Source: Kofleriaceae bacterium (GTDB lineage Bacteria; Myxococcota_A; Polyangia; Haliangiales; Haliangiaceae). From it: DNA of 37,803 nucleotides. Where the stretch lies: NCBI GenBank assembly GCA_022842285.1, contig JALHPV010000033.1, positions 1 through 37,803 of the forward strand. The letters run 5' to 3'. Both the position numbers and the translations under genes were made by a program. Below the pieces are notes generated by a model that saw only the letters and a program-made list of their open reading frames with translations, did no database searches and was not told where the DNA came from. Shown here in pieces: positions 2,043 to 32,898 of this stretch (position 1 is its first letter; every line of letters starts with the position of its first letter).

Positions 2043-3199
2043 CTAGCCGAGGGGCAGCGAGACACCGAAGCGAGTGCCGTGGGGGCCCGTGTCGAGGCGG
2101 ATCGCTCCGCCGTGCAACGCGACGAGGCTATGCACGATCGACATCCCCAGTCCCGTGCCGCCCTCTTTGGTCGAGAAGAACGGCTCGAAGATCCGTGCTC
2201 GCACCGCCTCCGGGATTCCCGGGCCGCTGTCGTGAACCTCGAGCTCGATCGAGTTGTCGGTCGTCATGAGCTCGACGACGACCTCGCCACCGGCGAGCAC
2301 GACCTCGATCGCGTTGCGAATCAGATGATCGGCGACCTGCGTGAGCTTGGGCCCGTCGACGTTGGCCACGAGCGTCTCTCGCCCGGGGACGAACCGCAGC
2401 GTCGCGCCGCGATCTTCGGCCGCCGGCCGCTGCTCGTCGCAGACGGCGGCGACGAGCTTGACCACGTCATGCGACAGAGGATTCAGCCGCACGGGCTGGG
2501 CGAAGGTCAGGAAGTCGGTGAGGAGGCTGGTCAAGCGAACGAGCTCGGACTGGGCGAGCTCGACCGGCGTGACGAGTCGCTCCTCCGCGTCTGCGCGTCG
2601 CAGCCGCCGCTCCACGAGCTCGAGCTGGAGCTTGGCCGCGTTGAGCGGATTTCGGATCTCGTGCGCGAGCCCGGCGGTCAAGGTCTGGAGGGAGACGAGC
2701 CGCTCGTCGCGCTCCTCGCGGGTCCGTTCGCTCTGGGAGGGGCGATGCGTGAGCTGGTAGTGGCGGACGAGACAGGCGAGCTCGAGATCGAGCAACCGAT
2801 TCACCGAGTCCACGAGCGCCCACGCTTCGGCCGGCGGATAGAGCGCGGCGATCCGGTGGTGGTAGGCCATGCGGACGACGTGGATGAACGTGACCGTCCG
2901 GTGCTGCGGCCACGCCTCGGGGATGTGGCGTGCTCCGGCGTGGAGGCGCCCGACGTAGAAGGCGTGGTCATGCGGCCCGCGGAGGCTCGTTTCGAGCCAT
3001 TCGATCACGCCTTCGCGGATGCGAGACACCTGCTCGGGCGTGGCGACGCTCGGCGCGGCATCAGGGGCGTTCGCGAGCAGCTCGAGGTAGCGGTCGGCGA
3101 TCGCCGGGAGATCGGGCCGGAGTCGCTCGAGGAGCCGCGCCACTCGCGTCGTATCCTCGCTGTCGAACCGGATGAAGCCGAGCAGCTCGGCGATCGAGT

Positions 3200-3203
<4 letters not shown>
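2043..3203 (-). CDS. Globin-coupled sensor histidine kinase
   Basis: A 386-residue soluble kinase. Residues 1-150 match the protoglobin/globin-coupled-sensor pattern: an N-terminal helix with FDSEDTTRVARLLERLRP, DRYLELLAN, GVIEWLETSLRGPHD, then YVGRLHAGARHIPEAW, where H93 aligns with the proximal haem-ligand His of the family block RLRIGRVH. HisKA follows with the H-box LAHEIRNPLN (phospho-acceptor H181), then a HATPase with N-box DHLIRNAIE (292-300), G1 DSGPGIP and G2 GGTGLGMSI. No membrane segment is seen. The ATG overlaps the stop of the NtrC gene (ATGA), so the pair is translationally coupled and is almost certainly a cognate two-component system. The frame is open far upstream, but that part only shadows the NtrC gene. 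Haem binding and ligand (O2, NO, CO or redox) are inferred. Confidence 0.88.
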
Positions 3204-4600
<1,397 letters not shown>

Positions 4601-4613
4601 GAGCGACGACTGT

Positions 4614-4629
4614 AGCGATTCCCGTGCCG
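4614..4629 (-). promoter_or_regulatory. Putative sigma54 (-24/-12) promoter of the NtrC gene
   Basis: On the minus strand it reads CGGCACGGGAATCGCT, against consensus TGGCACG-N4-TTGCW. GGCACG is perfect, GG-N10-GC spacing is exact, and the -12 box has one mismatch. The first base is 29 nt before the ATG, close to the 28-nt spacing seen across the island. Predicted transcription begins almost at the start codon. Confidence 0.6.
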
Positions 4630-4634
4630 CCCCA

Positions 4635-4703
4635 CGCGCAGGTTTGGCGCATCGCCGCCCGCAAGTTTTGCGCCACTGGTGCATGGCGCGCAAACCTTGC
4701 GCG
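4635..4703. promoter_or_regulatory. Triple dyad operator/enhancer upstream of the NtrC gene
   Basis: Three 17-bp near-palindromes share the form CGCGCAA-N3-TTGCGCG. The site at 4687-4703 is perfect (7-bp arms, spacer acc). The site at 4658-4674 is CCCGCAA-gtt-TTGCGCC. The site at 4635-4651 is CGCGCAG-gtt-TGGCGCA. They fill the 105-bp gap between the hybrid-kinase stop and the NtrC start, directly upstream of the -24/-12 element at 4614-4629. They are plausible enhancer sites for the NtrC protein acting on its own gene. Related sites occur elsewhere in the island. Confidence 0.55.
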
Positions 4704-7765: not shown

Positions 7766-7782
7766 TGCGCAACGGGTGCGGG
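7766..7782. promoter_or_regulatory. Near-dyad resembling the NtrC-gene sites
   Basis: TGCGCAA-cgg-GTGCGGG matches the CGCGCAA-N3-TTGCGCG form at 11 of 14 arm positions. It lies in the divergent region between the REC-kinase and the cytochrome lipoprotein, 52 nt upstream of the -24/-12 element at 7834. Confidence 0.3.
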
Positions 7783-7833: not shown

Positions 7834-7849
7834 TGGCATGGGCCTGGCA
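7834..7849 (+). promoter_or_regulatory. Putative sigma54 promoter of the cytochrome lipoprotein
   Basis: It reads TGGCATGGGCCTGGCA: TGGCA in the -24 box, GG-N10-GC spacing, and TGGCA against TTGCA in the -12 box. Its first base is exactly 28 nt before the ATG at 7862. The match also helps choose that start. Confidence 0.5.
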
Positions 7850-7861
7850 GCACCGGCTCGT

Positions 7862-8623
7862 ATGTACATGCGCGTCGCCGCTGCCGCCCTGCTCGTCGCC
7901 TCCGCATGTCGGCCCGAGAAACAGTATCCCCCCGCGCCCGCGATGCCCCCGCAACCGTCGTTCGTCACCCTCGTGAACTCGACGCTCGCCCGGATGCACC
8001 AGCGGTACAGCGCCGCGCGCCGCATCGAAGAGGCGATCATCTGGGGAGATCTCGCAACGGCCCAGGCCGAGGCCGGACAGCTCGCGCTCCTCGCCGAGCC
8101 GAGCGCCCTCCCCGAATGGCAGCCGTACTTCGACCGCGTGCGCGATGCGGCCCGGGAGCTCGAGGCGTCGGGCGTGATCGCGTCGGCCGCACGGCGGAGC
8201 GCCGAGCTCGGTGCCGCCTGCGCGGACTGTCATGCCGCCATCGGCGGCCGCCCCGTGTTCGATACGATTCTGCCGCCGCCGACCGGTGACAGCGTCGATG
8301 CGCAGATGCGGGCCCACGGCTGGGGCGCCGCGCGGATGTGGGAGGGCTTGATCGCCCCCGAGAATGCCCGCTGGGAAGAGGGCGCGGGGGCGCTCGTCCT
8401 CTCGCCGATCACGATCTCGGAGGTCGAACAGACCCGCCTGTCAGACAACATGGTGTCCGTGCGCAACGCCATGGGCGAGCATGTCGAGAAGATCCGCGCG
8501 TACGCGAGCAAGGCGATGACGCCTCTCACCCAGCGCGAGCGCGTCGACCTGTACGGCGAGATGCTGGTGACGTGCGCGAGCTGCCATGCGCTCGTGCGCG
8601 ACGTGGACCTCGCGCGCCAGTGA
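7862..8623 (+). CDS. Di-haem c-type cytochrome lipoprotein
   Basis: A 253-residue protein beginning MYMRVAAAALLVASAC, a short lipoprotein signal with the lipidated Cys at residue 16. It carries two haem sites, CADCH (120-124) and CASCH (238-242), separated by a mostly helical stretch. This looks like a small periplasmic membrane-anchored electron carrier or haem-based redox component; no named family is recognised. The start at 7862 is preferred over an in-frame ATG at 7838 because it gives a compact signal peptide and lies exactly 28 nt after a -24/-12 element. It is divergent from the kinase operon, which places a haem protein next to haem-sensor signalling genes. Confidence 0.82.
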   Translation: MYMRVAAAALLVASACRPEKQYPPAPAMPPQPSFVTLVNSTLARMHQRYSAARRIEEAIIWGDLATAQAEAGQLALLAEPSALPEWQPYFDRVRDAARELEASGVIASAARRSAELGAACADCHAAIGGRPVFDTILPPPTGDSVDAQMRAHGWGAARMWEGLIAPENARWEEGAGALVLSPITISEVEQTRLSDNMVSVRNAMGEHVEKIRAYASKAMTPLTQRERVDLYGEMLVTCASCHALVRDVDLARQ

Positions 8624-8626
8624 CGT

Positions 8627-8643
8627 CGCGCAAGCCGTGCGGC
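8627..8643. promoter_or_regulatory. Partial dyad (enhancer-like) upstream of the SDR promoter
   Basis: CGCGCAA-gcc-GTGCGGC has a perfect left arm and a 4-of-7 right arm relative to the NtrC-gene dyad. A perfect right-arm half-site, TTGCGCG, follows at 8667-8673. Both lie 28-75 nt upstream of the strong -24/-12 element at 8701. Confidence 0.3.
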
Positions 8644-8700: not shown

Positions 8701-8716
8701 TGGCGCGTGCCTTGCT
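8701..8716 (+). promoter_or_regulatory. Putative sigma54 promoter of the leader peptide-SDR unit
   Basis: TGGCGCGTGCCTTGCT differs from TGGCACG-N4-TTGCW at one position only. It is 28 nt before the ATG of a 13-codon open frame at 8729 and 71 nt before the SDR ATG. Confidence 0.65.
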
Positions 8717-8728
8717 CTCTCGGCGTGC

Positions 8729-8770
8729 ATGAGCATCGACATCTCGGACCACGCCACGAAGGCGGCGTGA
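8729..8770 (+). CDS. Putative 13-residue leader peptide, coupled to the SDR gene
   Basis: ATG at 8729 opens MSIDISDHATKAA and stops at 8770, one base before the SDR ATG at 8772. The ATG is exactly 28 nt from the first base of a near-perfect sigma54 promoter, the same spacing as at full-length island genes, so a leaderless transcript would begin at this codon. It could couple translation into the SDR gene. It is too short to judge from sequence alone. Confidence 0.4.
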   Translation: MSIDISDHATKAA

Positions 8771-8771
8771 C

Positions 8772-9536
8772 ATGACGACATCTACCCATGCCCGCGACAA
8801 GGTCGCGCTCGTCACCGGAGGAGCCTCCGGTATCGGCCGCGCGACGGCAGAGGCCTTTGCGGCGCGCGGCATCGCCGTCGCGGTCGCGGATCTAGACGTC
8901 GCGGGCGGCGAGGAGACCGTCGCTCTCGTACACAAGCTAGGGGGACGGGGCATCTTCATCCGCACGGATGTGTCCTCGTCGGTGTCCGTGCACACGATGG
9001 TCGAGCGCACCATCGCGGAGTATGGCCGCCTCGATATCGCCTTCAACAACGCGGGCATCGAGGGTGAGTCGGGCTCCGTCCTCGACTGTAGCGAGGCGAA
9101 CTGGGATCGCGTGCTCACCGTCAATCTGAAGAGCGTGTGGCTGTGCATGAAGCACGAGATTCCACACATGCTCCACGCGGGCGGCGCGATCGTGAACTGC
9201 GCGTCGATCGCTGGTCTGGTCGGGTTCCGGAACCTGCCGGCCTACGTCGCCAGCAAGCACGGCATCATCGGTCTCACGCGCGCGGCCTCGCTCGAGCTCG
9301 CCCGCTCGAACATCCGGGTGAACGCCGTCTGCCCGGGCGTGATCCAGACGCCGATGATCGATCGAGCCACGCATGGCGATCCGGCCCAGCGCGCCGGATA
9401 CGCCGCGGCCGAACCCGTGGGACGACTGGGTGGGGCGTTCGAGGTCGCCGACGCCGTCGTGTGGCTCTGCTCGCCCAACGCGTCGTTCGTGACCGGCATC
9501 GCGCTTCCCGTCGACGGCGGCTGGGTCGCGCAATAA
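8772..9536 (+). CDS. Short-chain dehydrogenase/reductase
   Basis: A 254-residue classical SDR: cofactor motif TGGASGIG (15-22), NNAG (92-95), catalytic S145, Y158 and K162 (AYVASK), and PG near 188. Aspartates at 40 and 42 after the second strand (VAVADLDVAGG) favour NAD(H) over NADP(H). Length and motifs fit the 3-oxoacyl-ACP reductase / glucose 1-dehydrogenase-like group; the substrate cannot be assigned. AAGGCGG lies 7-13 nt before the ATG as a ribosome binding site, which it shares with the end of the small leader frame. Expression probably depends on the sigma54-type promoter at 8701. Confidence 0.92.
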   Translation: MTTSTHARDKVALVTGGASGIGRATAEAFAARGIAVAVADLDVAGGEETVALVHKLGGRGIFIRTDVSSSVSVHTMVERTIAEYGRLDIAFNNAGIEGESGSVLDCSEANWDRVLTVNLKSVWLCMKHEIPHMLHAGGAIVNCASIAGLVGFRNLPAYVASKHGIIGLTRAASLELARSNIRVNAVCPGVIQTPMIDRATHGDPAQRAGYAAAEPVGRLGGAFEVADAVVWLCSPNASFVTGIALPVDGGWVAQ

Positions 9537-9967: not shown

Positions 9968-10839
9968 GAGCGGTGGCGCGCGACGAGCACGGGCGTCCGC
10001 GCGTGTCGCACGACCTTCTCGGCGACCGAGCCCAGGATGATGCGCGAGAGGCCGGTCCGGCCCTCGCTGCCGATGACCACGAGGTCCGTCGCCGTCTGCG
10101 CGTCGAGCTCGTCGAGCACGCCGGCGCCCGCAGTGCCGACCCGGACGCTCGTCCGGATGGCGACCTTGGTCAACGTCCGCAGGGTTGCTTCCCAGCGGGT
10201 GAGCTCTTCGCGAGCCTGACTGTCGAGCAACTGCATGTAGGGCGTGTCGAGCGGACGACCGGAGTACATCACCGGCGGCTCGATGACGTGGAGCAGCGTG
10301 ATGCCAAGCCCTCCGGGCGCGGTCAGGGCGGCGGCGGTCTCCATCGCGAAGCGTGACGACTCGGAGAAGTCGACCGGGCAGAGCACGGTGCGGTACGGCT
10401 GCGGTTCGGCGTTGCGAACGGCGAGGACCGAGCACGGCGCGTGGCGGATGACCTTCTCCGCCACGGAGCCGAGCAACACGCGTCCGAGCCCGGTGCGGCC
10501 ATGTGTTCCCACGACGCATAGATCGAAGGCCTGTTGCCCGAGAAGATCGGTGATCTCCCGCCAGGCCATGCCGTTCGCGAGCCGCAAGGTCACATCGCGA
10601 GCACCCGCGAGGCGTGCGTGTTCTTCGGCGTGGGCAAGCTCGGTCGCCGCCGCGTCGGAGATCGCGGGATAGAGCGGAGCCGCGAACGCGTCCGCCGACA
10701 AGGCGACCGCGGGCAGATGCCAGACGTGGAGGATCGTCAGCTCGCCGGCAGACTCGGCCGCGAGGTGGGCGGCGGTGCGGAGCGCGAGCTCCGACCCAGC
10801 CGAGAAGTCAGTGGCGCAAAGGATCTTCTTGAACGGCAT
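9964..10839 (-). CDS. Tandem universal stress protein (two USP domains)
   Basis: A 291-residue protein made of two UspA-fold domains (about 1-143 and 147-290). Each has the nucleotide-binding aspartate in the first strand (ILCATDFS; VLCPVDFS) and a complete ATP loop G-x2-G-x9-G-S (GTHGRTGLGRVLLGS; GSEGRTGLSRIILGS), so both domains should bind ATP. Tandem USPs act in energy-limited, hypoxic or dormant states. AGGAG precedes the ATG. It is divergent from the HhH protein gene, and the shared control region holds an 11-bp inverted repeat. It is a close structural paralogue of the tandem USP at 15824. Confidence 0.93.
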   Translation of the reverse strand: MPFKKILCATDFSAGSELALRTAAHLAAESAGELTILHVWHLPAVALSADAFAAPLYPAISDAAATELAHAEEHARLAGARDVTLRLANGMAWREITDLLGQQAFDLCVVGTHGRTGLGRVLLGSVAEKVIRHAPCSVLAVRNAEPQPYRTVLCPVDFSESSRFAMETAAALTAPGGLGITLLHVIEPPVMYSGRPLDTPYMQLLDSQAREELTRWEATLRTLTKVAIRTSVRVGTAGAGVLDELDAQTATDLVVIGSEGRTGLSRIILGSVAEKVVRHARTPVLVARHRS

Positions 10840-11793: not shown

Positions 11794-12324
11794 CTATACG
11801 AGCAAGGGCTCGAGTAGCGCGCCCACCGCATACGCCGCGCCGCTCGCACCACCCGCGAGGACGATCATCTCGAGGGCACACCGCCATGCGGGCCGCGCGA
11901 CGAACCTCGCGCGGCCGGCGCCGACGACCGCGAGGGCAGCGAGGCCGAGGACGAACGAGGTCTGGAAGCGCGACATGCCGGGGAGTCCGATGAGGAAGGC
12001 GAGGAGGGGAATCGCCCCGACGACCACGAACGCCGCGAAGGTCGCGAGCCCGTGTCGCCAGGGCATCTCGGCGTCGAGTGACTCGCCGTTCTGCTCGAGC
12101 TCTGACTTGAGCCCGAGGTAGTTGCTCACCGCCATCGAGAGTCCGTCCGCGACGAGGTTGGCGAGCCCCAGCACGAGGCCAACGCCCGCCGGAAGGTCGG
12201 CGCCCGCCGCGCCGGCGATCACCGCGAGGGTCGTGATGACACCGTCCGTCGCGCCGTAGACCAGATCGCGTAGGTAGTGTCCGAGCCCATCCGCCGGCCG
12301 ACCGACGGCGGCCCCGAGCGTCAC
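11794..12324 (-). CDS. VIT1/CCC1-family metal transporter
   Basis: A 176-residue membrane protein with the VIT/CCC1 signature: DLVYGATDGVITTLAVIAGA near the N-terminus, then LGLANLVADGLSMAVSNYL, and three further hydrophobic segments (AFVVVGAIPLLAFLIG, FVLGLAALAVVGAG, ALEMIVLAGGASGAAYAVG). The family moves Fe2+ or Mn2+ out of the cytoplasm. At 176 residues it is at the short end and lacks the long cytoplasmic metal-binding insertion of eukaryotic VIT1. The GTG start overlaps the stop of the CBS-domain gene (GTGA), so the two are coupled. Iron handling fits an island rich in haem and iron proteins. It converges on the HhH gene with 5 bp between stops. Confidence 0.88.
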   Translation of the reverse strand: MTLGAAVGRPADGLGHYLRDLVYGATDGVITTLAVIAGAAGADLPAGVGLVLGLANLVADGLSMAVSNYLGLKSELEQNGESLDAEMPWRHGLATFAAFVVVGAIPLLAFLIGLPGMSRFQTSFVLGLAALAVVGAGRARFVARPAWRCALEMIVLAGGASGAAYAVGALLEPLLV

Positions 12325-12758
12325 GCCCGCGCTGCCTGGTGACGCAAGATGTCGATGTACGACACGATGCCGATCAGCGCGCCAAACTGGTCGGTGACGG
12401 GCAGGGCGCCGTGGCGAACCTCGACGAGCTTGTGCACGATCTCCTGGAAGGGCAGGTCGAAGGGAATCGTCGTCGGGGCGCGGCGCATCAGGTGAAGGAC
12501 GCGCAGCCCATGCGTACCGGCCGCGTGCTGAGACACGAACGTGCGCGGATCGCCGACGGCCGTCCGGACGTCGCGGTCACTGAGAATGCCGACAATCGTG
12601 CTGGAGACATCGACGACGGGGAGGTGCCGGATCTTCCGGTCGACCATGATCGAGACCGCATCGACGAGCAGCGTCTCCGGCTGCACCGCGATGGCATACG
12701 GGGTCATGATGTCGGCAGCCATGGTCGTGGTCTCGGTCGTGGCGACGGGAGCCTGCAT
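12321..12758 (-). CDS. CBS-domain pair protein
   Basis: A 145-residue protein consisting mostly of a CBS pair: MTPYAIAVQPETLLVDAVSIMVDRKIRHLPVVD-type block, then IVGILSDRDVR, and a second repeat with APTTIPFDLPFQEIVHKLVEVRHGALPVTD followed by LIGIVSYIDILRH. Stand-alone CBS pairs bind adenine nucleotides and act as energy sensors for partner proteins. It is translationally coupled to the VIT-type transporter, which it may regulate. The start is the ATG at 12758, 28 nt from a -24/-12 element; GGAG also lies 8-11 nt before it. Confidence 0.9.
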   Translation of the reverse strand: MQAPVATTETTTMAADIMTPYAIAVQPETLLVDAVSIMVDRKIRHLPVVDVSSTIVGILSDRDVRTAVGDPRTFVSQHAAGTHGLRVLHLMRRAPTTIPFDLPFQEIVHKLVEVRHGALPVTDQFGALIGIVSYIDILRHQAARA

Positions 12759-12770
12759 GACCGGTGCTCC

Positions 12771-12786
12771 AGCATGCGCGATGCCA
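12771..12786 (-). promoter_or_regulatory. Putative sigma54 promoter of the CBS-VIT operon
   Basis: The minus strand reads TGGCATCGCGCATGCT: TGGCA perfect, GG-N10-GC exact, ATGCT in the -12 box. Its first base is 28 nt before the ATG at 12758. It overlaps the 3' end of the upstream exported-protein gene by one base pair window only (stop at 12789). Confidence 0.5.
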
Positions 12787-12788
12787 GG

Positions 12789-13433
12789 TCACACGTCGGG
12801 CGGGATATGCGGCACGACGACGCGATCGATCCGACCGTTGGGGACGTAGCTGCGGCCCACCGGATCGAACGTGAACGCGTACGTACCTCCCGCCGGTGGC
12901 TGGAAGAACAGCCGATTGTCGCGGAGCCAGATGGCGCCCTCCGCGTGGGATTCGCCCTCCCAGGTCTCGACGACGGCGACGAAGACGGCGTCAAGGACGT
13001 GCGCTGGCCCCGGCCGATAGAACGCGACCTCCGTCGCCGCCTCGCTTCGTCCTCCGCGCACGGTGGCGAGCACGACGACCGGAGCGCCGTCGAGTCGGGC
13101 CACCGCCAGCGCGGTGATCTCGTCGGCGCTGCCGCTGCACGGCGAGCCCGGGAGTCGACCGAGCACGTGTCCCGCTCCGTCTCGAACCGTCACCCCATCG
13201 AGAAAGGACGCAGAAATCGTCTCGGCGCCCTCCGCGGCCGCAACGTTTGCGCGGACGACCCAGGTCTGGACCGCTCCGACGCTGCACCCCTCGGGCGGCT
13301 CCGGGGCGCTCGGCACGAGGCTCCCCAGGCGCACGTCGACGAGACCATGCACCCACGGGAGCGCTCCCGGGGGAGGCGCATCCGCGACGGTGGCCCCGAG
13401 CGCGACGATCGAAGCGATGGCGGTGCGGCTCAT
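12789..13433 (-). CDS. Exported protein of unknown function
   Basis: A 214-residue protein beginning MSRTAIASIVALGATVADA, a probable cleavable signal peptide. The mature part is beta-rich (DGAPVVVLATVRGG, EVAFYRPGPA, GTYAFTFDPVGRSYVP) with two Cys that could pair. No family is recognised. The ATG is divergent from the HemG-like gene across only 56 bp, and this gap contains two back-to-back -24/-12 elements. That control region ties it to the island even though its function is unknown. Confidence 0.72.
   Translation of the reverse strand: MSRTAIASIVALGATVADAPPPGALPWVHGLVDVRLGSLVPSAPEPPEGCSVGAVQTWVVRANVAAAEGAETISASFLDGVTVRDGAGHVLGRLPGSPCSGSADEITALAVARLDGAPVVVLATVRGGRSEAATEVAFYRPGPAHVLDAVFVAVVETWEGESHAEGAIWLRDNRLFFQPPAGGTYAFTFDPVGRSYVPNGRIDRVVVPHIPPDV
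13237..13253. promoter_or_regulatory. Near-dyad about 200 bp from the divergent promoter pair
   Basis: GCCGCAA-cgt-TTGCGCG has a perfect CGCAA-N3-TTGCG core. It lies inside the coding sequence of the exported protein, 193-225 bp from the two back-to-back -24/-12 elements, a typical enhancer distance for sigma54 activators. Confidence 0.3.
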
Positions 13434-13445
13434 GCCCCCACGAGC

Positions 13446-13461
13446 AGCACGACGCGTGCCG
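13446..13461 (-). promoter_or_regulatory. Putative sigma54 promoter of the exported-protein gene
   Basis: The minus strand reads CGGCACGCGTCGTGCT: GGCACG perfect, GG-N10-GC exact, GTGCT in the -12 box. Its first base is 28 nt before the ATG at 13433 and is directly adjacent to the opposing element at 13462. Confidence 0.58.
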
Positions 13462-13477
13462 TGGCGCGGACGTTGCT
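13462..13477 (+). promoter_or_regulatory. Putative sigma54 promoter of the HemG-like gene
   Basis: TGGCGCGGACGTTGCT differs from TGGCACG-N4-TTGCW at one position. Its first base is 28 nt before the ATG at 13490. There is no Shine-Dalgarno between it and the ATG, which fits a leaderless transcript. Confidence 0.65.
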
Positions 13478-13489
13478 CGGGTCGACGCC

Positions 13490-14053
13490 ATGAGCCGATA
13501 TCTCGTCGTCTACGCGTCCCACTTCGGACAGACCCGCAAGATCGCCGACCGGATCGCGGACACGATCCGGGCGCGTGGGCACATCGCCGAGGTCGCGGAT
13601 GTCGTCGCCTGCAAGGTCCCGCCGCCGGTGCAGGACTACGACGTCCTGGTGGCCGGCAGTCGGGTCGAGCTCGGCCGTCATGACGGGGTCCTGGTCGAGT
13701 ACCTCCGCGAGAGTCGCCAGGCTCTCGCCTTCATGCCGTGGGCCTTCTTCTCCGTCAGTGCCGCGGCCTCGACGCCCAACGCCGGCGCGGATCCAAACGG
13801 CTACATGGAGGTGCTCTTCTCCGACCTCGGCTCGCGGCCGACGCGGGCCAAGGCCTTCGCGGGCGGGCTGCCGTACCGGAAGTACAACTTCATCCTCCGC
13901 TTCATCATGAAGCGCGTCTCGCGAAGCGCCGGGCATACGACGGATACCTCCCGGAACCACGAGATGACCAACTGGGACGACGTCCGCGCCTTCGCCGAGG
14001 ACCTCGCGACCCTCTCCCCGCTGCGTCGCCCCGACCCGCGGATGATGGCGTGA
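13490..14053 (+). CDS. Flavodoxin-domain protein, HemG-like protoporphyrinogen IX dehydrogenase
   Basis: A 187-residue protein. YASHFGQTRKIADRIA (8-23) is the FMN phosphate-binding loop of long-chain-like flavodoxins. The C-terminal half matches menaquinone-dependent protoporphyrinogen oxidase HemG closely: FSVSAAAST where HemG has FSVNL, then FAGGLPYRKYNFILRFIMKR and a final DTSRNHEMTNWDDVRAFAEDL (HemG-type TDT...TDW...FA). HemG oxidises protoporphyrinogen IX to protoporphyrin IX at the inner membrane with quinone as acceptor, which allows haem synthesis without oxygen. The family call is good; the exact reaction is inferred, since related flavodoxins have other roles. It fits a low-oxygen, haem-linked regulon. 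Confidence 0.8.
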   Translation: MSRYLVVYASHFGQTRKIADRIADTIRARGHIAEVADVVACKVPPPVQDYDVLVAGSRVELGRHDGVLVEYLRESRQALAFMPWAFFSVSAAASTPNAGADPNGYMEVLFSDLGSRPTRAKAFAGGLPYRKYNFILRFIMKRVSRSAGHTTDTSRNHEMTNWDDVRAFAEDLATLSPLRRPDPRMMA

Positions 14054-14059
14054 GGGCTT

Positions 14060-14076
14060 CGCGCAGAACCTGCGGC
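14060..14076. promoter_or_regulatory. Partial dyad upstream of the USP-CBS operon
   Basis: CGCGCAG-aac-CTGCGGC matches the NtrC-gene dyad at 10 of 14 arm positions. A perfect half-site, TTGCGCG, lies at 14106-14112. Both lie 34-86 nt upstream of the -24/-12 element at 14146. Confidence 0.25.
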
Positions 14077-14145: not shown

Positions 14146-14161
14146 TGGCACGACGGCCGCA
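14146..14161 (+). promoter_or_regulatory. Putative sigma54 promoter of the membrane protein-USP-CBS-USP operon
   Basis: TGGCACGACGGCCGCA has a perfect -24 box and GG-N10-GC spacing; the -12 box is CCGCA against TTGCA. Its first base is 28 nt before the ATG at 14174. Confidence 0.52.
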
Positions 14162-14173
14162 AGAGGCGCCGTC

Positions 14174-14365
14174 ATGGCCGCTGTCTTCGCGCTCGTCTTT
14201 CTCTTCGCCTTCGCTGCCACTGCCCTGTTCGTCAAGGGCCTCGCGGTGCTGTCACTCGGTACAGCCCTGACGGGTGGCGTCTTCTTCGGTCTCGCCGTGG
14301 GCGTCTTTGTCGGCCTCCTGCGGCTCGTGAAGGGCCTCGAGGAAGACCCGGAGCACGCAGCGTGA
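14174..14365 (+). CDS. Small membrane protein, two transmembrane helices
   Basis: A 63-residue protein with two hydrophobic helices (AAVFALVFLFAFAATALFV and LSLGTALTGGVFFGLAVGVFVGLL) and a short acidic C-terminus. No family is recognised. The start at 14174 is chosen over an upstream in-frame ATG at 14096 because the extra residues are not hydrophobic or conserved-looking and the promoter motif spacing fits 14174. Its stop overlaps the GTG of the next USP gene, so it is coupled to it and may anchor or partner the stress proteins. Confidence 0.7.
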   Translation: MAAVFALVFLFAFAATALFVKGLAVLSLGTALTGGVFFGLAVGVFVGLLRLVKGLEEDPEHAA

Positions 14366-15795: not shown

Positions 15796-15811
15796 TGGAC
15801 GCGGGGTTGCA
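15796..15811 (+). promoter_or_regulatory. Putative sigma54 promoter of the second tandem USP
   Basis: TGGACGCGGGGTTGCA: TGG, exact GG-N10-GC spacing and a perfect TTGCA; the -24 box is weaker after TGG. Its first base is 28 nt before the ATG at 15824. GGAG at 15814-15817 would lie upstream of a leaderless start. Confidence 0.48.
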
Positions 15812-15823
15812 ATGGAGTCCGTC

Positions 15824-16702
15824 ATGGCTCCAACGAAGATTCTGTGTCCCGTCGACTTCTCGCCCGGATCTCGGCGGGCGCTGCTCACCGCGGTCCGCAT
15901 CGCTGCCGAGACGGGAGCGGAGCTGGTGGTCGTCCACGCCTGGTACATCCCGGCCAGCGCGTACTCCGTCGAAGCGCCATTCTCGCCGGACCTCACCCAG
16001 CAGATCGTCATCGATGCGGAGAAGCGCCTCGCGGACATCCTGGCCGAGCAGCGCGCGGGCGGTCTCACCAAGGTGTCGGTCAAGCTCCTGAATGGCGTCC
16101 CGTGGGCGCAGGTCGTGACGGAGCTCGAGACCGAGCCTTATGACCTGTGCGTGCTGGGGACCCAGGGACGAACGGGGCTCGCGCGGATCCTCCTGGGCTC
16201 GGTGGCCGCGAAGATCGTCCGCCATGCACCATGCTCGGTCCTCGCCGTGCGCCCCGACTCCGAGGCCAAGCCGTACAGCCACGTGCTCGTGCCCACGGAC
16301 TTCTCACCGCAGGCGCACCACGCGCTCGACATCGCTCCGCAGTTCGTCGCACGCGGCGGCACGATCACGCTGATGCACGTGATCGAGGTGCCGGTGGACT
16401 ACTCGGGGGCGGTCCCGATCGGCGACTTCGTGCGTGACATCGACAAGCATGCCTCGAACACGCTCGAGGCCGAAGCGAAGCGCCTCGTGACCACTACCTC
16501 CGTTCCCATCTCCACCACGGCGCGCATCGGGTACGCGGGGGTCGAGACGCTGGCAGCGATCGCGGCGGATCCGACGATCGATCTGGTCGTCGTGGGGACA
16601 CATGGGCGCACGGGCCTCAAGCGCGTGCTCCTCGGCTCGGTCGCCGAGAAGGTCATGCGTCACGCCCACTGTCCGGTGCTCGTTGCGCGGAAGCGCGGCT
16701 GA
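15824..16702 (+). CDS. Tandem universal stress protein (two USP domains)
   Basis: A 292-residue protein with two UspA domains, each with the strand-1 aspartate (ILCPVDFSPGS; VLVPTDFSPQA) and a full ATP loop (GTQGRTGLARILLGS; GTHGRTGLKRVLLGS). It resembles the tandem USP at 9964-10839 in domain order and motifs, so one probably arose from the other. The ATG at 15824 (MAPTKILCPVDFS) is chosen over one at 15812 because it matches the start of the paralogue, has GGAG 6 nt before it, and is 28 nt from a -24/-12 element. A short gap separates it from the preceding USP. Confidence 0.92.
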   Translation: MAPTKILCPVDFSPGSRRALLTAVRIAAETGAELVVVHAWYIPASAYSVEAPFSPDLTQQIVIDAEKRLADILAEQRAGGLTKVSVKLLNGVPWAQVVTELETEPYDLCVLGTQGRTGLARILLGSVAAKIVRHAPCSVLAVRPDSEAKPYSHVLVPTDFSPQAHHALDIAPQFVARGGTITLMHVIEVPVDYSGAVPIGDFVRDIDKHASNTLEAEAKRLVTTTSVPISTTARIGYAGVETLAAIAADPTIDLVVVGTHGRTGLKRVLLGSVAEKVMRHAHCPVLVARKRG

Positions 16703-32736: not shown

Positions 32737-32898
32737 CGATCCGCACCGCCCTTCGGCGGTGCTTCGCCTCACGCTGGCGCGAGGCTCGCCCGATCCGCAC
32801 CGCCCTTCGGCGGTGCTTCGCCTCACGCTGGCGCGAGGCTCGCCCGATCCGCACCGCCCTTCGGCGGTGCTTCGCCTCACGCGGGCACGAGGTTCGCC
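32737..32898. repeat. Three tandem 54-bp repeats, each with a hairpin
   Basis: Units at 32737-32790, 32791-32844 and 32845-32898 are nearly identical; unit 3 diverges in its second half. Each holds GCACCGCC-CTTC-GGCGGTGC (hairpins at 32743-32762, 32797-32816, 32851-32870). They lie between the tetR stop and the stop of the convergent gene; unit 3 includes the last codons of that gene. They probably act as a strong bidirectional terminator and arose by repeated duplication of a gene-end terminator. Confidence 0.85.

Follow-up and report, generated by a model that had tools for sequence, protein, structure and literature searches.

An SDR (short-chain dehydrogenase/reductase) gene of a Kofleriaceae bacterium is preceded by a 13-codon frame that starts at a fixed distance from a sigma54-type promoter and ends one base before the SDR start codon. 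The explanation favored here, with slightly better than even confidence, is that the sigma54 promoter of a stress cluster yields a leaderless RNA on which a translated 13-codon mini-cistron hands ribosomes to the SDR gene. The sigma54-made RNA would begin 0–3 nt from the ATG, as at most promoters with such spacing in the genus, and ribosomes would start on the 5' AUG of the leader. They would translate the leader through a small hairpin holding AAGGCGG, terminate at the UGA and, one base later, reinitiate at the AUG of SDR. The role of the leader would probably be ribosome delivery, the peptide itself being unimportant. The whole stretch of DNA that was analyzed (37,803 nt) is called the window. 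The site comprises the following features:

8701–8716 (+), sigma54-type −24/−12 promoter TGGCGCGTGCCTTGCT, from its consensus match and the motif counts in the window
8727–8729 (+), putative transcription start region, placed from the −12 element, the spacing rule and base preferences
8729–8770 (+), leader mini-cistron MSIDISDHATKAA with TGA at 8768–8770, by direct reading and coding composition
8759–8765 (+), AAGGCGG, Shine-Dalgarno (SD)-like, in leader codons 11–13 and 6 nt 5' of the SDR ATG, by direct reading
8772–9536 (+), SDR gene, 254 aa (adh_short_C2, E 2.8e-67)

An earlier note on this DNA had described the promoter as near-perfect and among the best of the window. This was borne out, since TGGCGCGTGCCTTGCT agrees with the consensus TGGCACGN4TTGCW at all but one of its 12 specified positions (11 of 12), including the −24 GG and the −12 GC at the right spacing. 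The pattern TGGCN7TTGC occurs five times in the window as compared to 0.69 expected, and none of 100 shuffles reached five. The same note had stated that the start codon 28 nt from the motif opens a tiny frame and not the SDR gene, and its coordinates, the 13 codons, the TGA and the one-base gap all proved exact: the leader ATG lies at 8729, and a single C separates the TGA from the ATG at 8772 (TGA-C-ATG). The stop is thus as close to the following start codon as in coupled ORFs.

The spacing between motif and start codon was found repeatedly. In the window, a start codon lies 28–29 nt from nine motif-like sites, two of which use GTG; in seven of the nine the distance is exactly 28 nt, and these seven include the flavodoxin, CBS and lipoprotein-like genes and the leader. 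The site at 9974 is antisense within a gene and is probably a chance match. Genome-wide, the bare motif barely exceeds its reversed control (264 vs. 230); thus, the motif alone proves little and the spacing to the ATG carries the signal. When TGGCRYGN5TGCW followed by ATG within 18–48 nt was searched in the own genome, 45 pairs were obtained, and by hand count over the 31 possible distances 9 were at 28 nt, 9 at 29 nt and 3 at 30 nt. The share at 28 or 29 nt (18 of 45) corresponds to a binomial p of about 1e-10. Across the 16 genomes of the genus, hand sums gave 397 motifs with ATG at 28–29 nt, as compared to 40 when the ATG lay six bases further on (34–35 nt) and 27 in the reversed-pattern control. 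Hence, the 28-nt rule for start codons proposed earlier is strongly supported across the genus, in the form of 28–29 nt. Other families of the class also showed an excess (19 vs. 0 in G070, 25 vs. 1 in G073 and 22 vs. 0 in G251), and it was absent from some genomes of the class (0 vs. 2 in G149 and 0 vs. 1 in G260). Outside the class, a clear excess was seen in few genomes (16 vs. 1 in G318 and 13 vs. 1 in G342). As a separate observation, a genome of the same phylum and another class (G462) carries about ten near-identical TGGCACGACGTTTGCAGTCGACCGACTCGATG-like sites on many contigs, i.e., a repeated element or a multigene family.

Most of the spaced ATGs appear to be gene starts. A total of 103 distinct sites were read (loci L112–L157 and L162–L221), and 95 of them opened a frame that was either at least 60 aa long or cut by the locus end; many of these 95 begin, as judged by eye, with a signal peptide or lipobox right at the ATG. 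Several of the eight short frames are likely to be true small proteins, among them what we take to be a 29-aa KdpF-like protein and proteins with a single membrane segment. Hydrophobic proteins of 27–44 aa, one of them KdpF-like, begin at the sigma54-spaced ATG in L118 (G001), L167, L174 and L204 and would escape gene-finding programs. In the own genome, frames of at least 85 aa were opened at 17 of 18 sites, and the leader site is the sole exception with a tiny frame.

Since the −12 element lies at its usual distance, +1 would fall 0–3 nt before the ATG. At the leader, the candidates are 8727 by the usual −12 spacing and the A of the leader ATG (8729). A 4-nt SD core was found at only 10 of the 94 gene starts with 28–29 nt spacing, i.e., most lack an SD sequence as is characteristic of leaderless mRNA. 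In addition, C precedes the ATG in 85% of the 94 sites vs. 24 of 40 rows of the control, which were counted manually (Fisher 0.003), and this preference is the sole hint that the A itself serves as +1. The genome possesses a single rpoN gene (one PF04552 match). The simplest reading of the spacing rule, a prediction from the spacing, is a leaderless mRNA made by sigma54. The wider proposal is that sigma54 sets +1 at the start codon throughout the class to give leaderless mRNAs, and that where the start codon does not open the gene, a mini-cistron beginning at that position provides a ribosome landing pad for termination-reinitiation; we consider this wider proposal evenly balanced between right and wrong.

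The strongest alternative, considered unlikely, is that SDR is an ordinary leadered gene with a 45-nt 5' UTR, started from its own AAGGCGG, with the ATG at 28 nt arising by chance and the frame being at most noise. Since the SD-like AAGGCGG lies 6 nt before its ATG, SDR could be read without the leader. In the homologue L010, a sigma54-like motif precedes the ATG by 50 nt, an SD is present and there is no leader. Moreover, at any given spacing about two motif-ATG pairs per genome should arise by chance (27–40 control matches in 16 genomes), and leaderless short-ORF translation in M. tuberculosis is pervasive and mostly functionless according to the part of PMC9094748 drawn on here. Against this alternative stands the joint position of start and stop. 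For a random sequence matched in composition, the probability is 0.020 that an ATG lies at 28 or 29 nt and 0.00056 that, in addition, its stop falls within 3 nt of the SDR start; the latter value applies to one promoter and loses force when all sigma54 promoters of the genome are considered. Any AUG-first RNA would, moreover, presumably be a leaderless substrate.

The coding-like composition of the leader also argues against chance. Its codon score was 10.9 bits in frame, as compared to −15 and −6 for the two remaining forward frames; one reverse-strand frame also scored 6.2 bits. Third codon positions are G/C in 13 of 13 codons, first and second positions in 6 of 13 each. When 10,617 overlapping stretches without a stop were taken from upstream of putatively leaderless genes, 0.39% scored as high, as did 1 of 79 ATG frames in the same upstream regions and 4 of 97 true gene starts. 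Judged by this composition, the 13-codon frame looks coding.

Distinctly less probable is a remnant origin, in which an earlier first gene of the operon, or a displaced N-terminus, was shortened to the present leader and kept because its end provides the SD and coupling. In L002, the SDR homologue is preceded by a longer gene ending in KKAA with AAGGCGGCCTGACCATG, close to AAGGCGGCGTGACATG of the leader, and L004 is similar; yet an SD demands nearly the same letters, and the likeness may therefore be convergent. The window SDR is also nearer to SDRs of distant taxa (61–62% identity) than to L002 (52%). Its best homologues in 55 related genomes showed at most 52% identity and named homologues at most 62%. 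The leader was absent from the three nearest homologues of the family, L002–L004, which at 50–52% identity are not close orthologues.

Parallel leaders in other genomes bear on both the remnant and the ribosome delivery proposed above. A strict leader pattern ending in TGANATG gave six matches in 289 genomes of the class, and the three in-frame leaders among them were that of the window and those of G162 and G192, which belong to another family. The latter two (L225 and L226) have 14 codons, end in TGACATG and precede orthologous secreted proteins of 450 and 453 aa. They differ by seven changes, most of which alter the amino acid, so that frame and length, and not the peptide, appear to have been kept; with only seven changes, this is no more than suggestive. 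Orthologues of the L226 gene were represented by 12 matches in 8 of 10 genomes. In L291 and L293, the orthologue itself begins 27 and 29 nt from the motif, and no such site was found by a simple pattern for the remaining orthologues. In this family, the promoter-start spacing is thus preserved whether the start codon belongs to the gene or to a leader, a point that speaks for the remnant as well.

Further arrangements of the kind were a 19-codon leader overlapping the next gene via TGATG (L219) and first cistrons of 54 codons joined by TGATG (L191) and of 50 codons joined by TGACGTG (L212). The last two loci (G004 and G008) encode related proteins of 50–54 aa that start at the sigma54-spaced ATG and lie next to or overlap a sensor-kinase-like gene. 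A wider search for TGATG leaders provided no support: it returned 81 rows, four of which were excluded (two cut at 80 letters, one of these also a second match at a promoter counted before, and two more second matches), and 4 of the 77 typed rows were in frame, which is no excess. Most other rows were CTG-ATG or GTG-ATG codons inside genes. Downstream frames were inspected in two of the four in-frame rows, with none of at least 60 aa in L228 and a doubtful one of 127 aa in L230.

That the leader is a sensing peptide controlling SDR expression through stalling or attenuation is very improbable: although mycobacteria offer a precedent, where leaderless short ORFs are said to attenuate operons (as Canestrari reportedly described in 2020), MSIDISDHATKAA has no repeated sensing codon of the kind found in attenuation leaders, the hairpin at 8750–8769 around AAGGCGG was not significant (z −1.24; 18 of 200 shuffles equally stable), and the L225/L226 changes mostly alter the amino acid. 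Of the earlier suggestion that the peptide may couple or regulate SDR translation, the first half is retained, with leader translation made likely by the spacing rule and coupling as the best reading; regulation by the peptide is not supported.

The SDR gene lies in what is probably a stress cluster, with similar promoters at several genes:

2043–3155 (−), sensor histidine kinase (HATPase_c, E 2.8e-23) that carries a protoglobin domain (Protoglobin, E 5.8e-8)
3200–4629 (−), NtrC-type regulator, gene at 3200–4600 (domain matches: receiver, Sigma54_activat PF00158, Fis-type HTH)
7834–8623 (+), predicted lipoprotein-like gene of 253 aa, sigma54-like site 7834–7849, ATG at 7862 (28 nt), palindrome 7768–7780 upstream
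8629–8641 (no strand), putative enhancer palindrome CGCAAGCCGTGCG (CGCAA-N3-TTGCG with one mismatch), 72 nt upstream of the SDR promoter motif
12321–12786 (−), CBS-domain gene, sigma54-like site 12786–12771, ATG at 12758 (28 nt)
12789–13461 (−), gene of 214 aa with no Pfam match, sigma54-like site 13461–13446, ATG at 13433 (28 nt)
13462–14053 (+), flavodoxin gene, sigma54 site 13462–13477, ATG at 13490 (28 nt)
14146–14365 (+), hydrophobic protein of 63 aa, sigma54-like site at 14146, ATG at 14174 (28 nt), palindrome 14062–14074 upstream
15796–16702 (+), universal stress protein gene, weaker sigma54-like site at 15796, ATG 28 nt on

A common palindrome accompanies several of these promoters. 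CGCA-N5-TGCG occurs 12 times in the window (2.47 expected) and near matches to CGCAAN3TTGCG 7 times (1.62 expected); none of 100 shuffles reached 12 or 7, respectively. The motif at 7834 has a copy 66 nt upstream, that at 8701 one 72 nt upstream and that at 14146 one 84 nt upstream. The sigma54-like site of the regulator gene (4629–4614), with an ATG 29 nt on, has palindromes at 4660–4672 and 4689–4701, i.e., 31 and 60 nt upstream. About half of the 12 copies are inside genes, no palindrome was found within 260 nt for four of the nine promoters examined, and over the genus the combination of palindrome and motif was not enriched (83 forward and reverse matches vs. 139 controls, hand sums). Four copies of CGCAA-N3-TTGCG are perfect (2021–2033, 4660–4672, 4689–4701 and 13239–13251); two of them lie before the regulator gene, where autoregulation is possible. 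A sigma54-like match at 4675 (−) was rejected as a promoter because it coincides with the palindrome 4660–4672. At 32775–32872, TGGCGCGAGGCTCGCCCGATCCGCACCGCCCTTCGGCGGTGCTTCGCC occurs twice, 54 bases apart, with an inverted repeat.

The NtrC-type regulator is the probable activator of the cluster and the adjoining histidine kinase its probable partner. The cluster contains three universal stress protein genes together with CBS, VIT1 and flavodoxin genes. From the regulator, the protoglobin kinase and the stress genes, we infer a stress cluster that may be under oxygen or redox control. The kinase and the activator (2043–4629, −) could form a heme-based oxygen sensor of a sigma54 stress cluster.

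Ribosome delivery by short ORFs and translation of leaderless short ORFs are already described; a sigma54 version was not found in the literature searched. Searches of one literature collection yielded no report of leaderless sigma54 transcripts in myxobacteria or Polyangia, and the available part of a sigma54 regulon survey (PMC12316311) contains neither "leaderless" nor "start codon". Start-site studies of Sinorhizobium and Leptospira (PMC3616915 and PMC5243855) cover both leaderless RNAs and sigma54 promoters and, in the parts drawn on here, do not join them. If the explanation is true, activator-dependent sigma54 would place SD-independent initiation in a clade under the control of a signal of the stress or hypoxia type. 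A simple sequence rule would then correct gene starts and find small genes (KdpF-like and short membrane proteins) without transcript data. The leader before SDR offers a clean test of ribosome hand-over by a mini-cistron.

Sigma54 promoters with NtrC-type activators are characterized by TGGC/TGC elements, an upstream palindrome and a regulator with a Sigma54_activat domain, and the cluster of the window shares the elements and the regulator, its palindrome being a candidate activator site. It differs from the classical systems, which have a leader with an SD, in that the start codon would lie at about +1 to +3, mostly with no SD. Leaderless mRNAs are usually linked to sigma70-type promoters. 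In Deinococcus-Thermus, a −10 region adjacent to ORFs (PMC12340547) likewise entails a fixed promoter-start distance and clade-wide leaderless mRNA; according to the part of that paper drawn on here, the element is a sigma70-type −10, whereas that of the window is a sigma54 −24/−12. Translation of leaderless short ORFs is widespread in M. tuberculosis (PMC9094748, same restriction), where, as proposed here, the short ORF of a leaderless RNA begins at its 5'-terminal AUG. The mycobacterial cases are not linked to sigma54 in that part of the paper, whereas the window has a −24/−12 promoter and a stop that abuts the next gene. Finally, short upstream ORFs deliver ribosomes to the following gene over a very short distance, as covered in the consulted part of a review on coupling (PMC12548453). 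The SDR leader would act alike, with the difference that the start of its short ORF is predicted to be leaderless.
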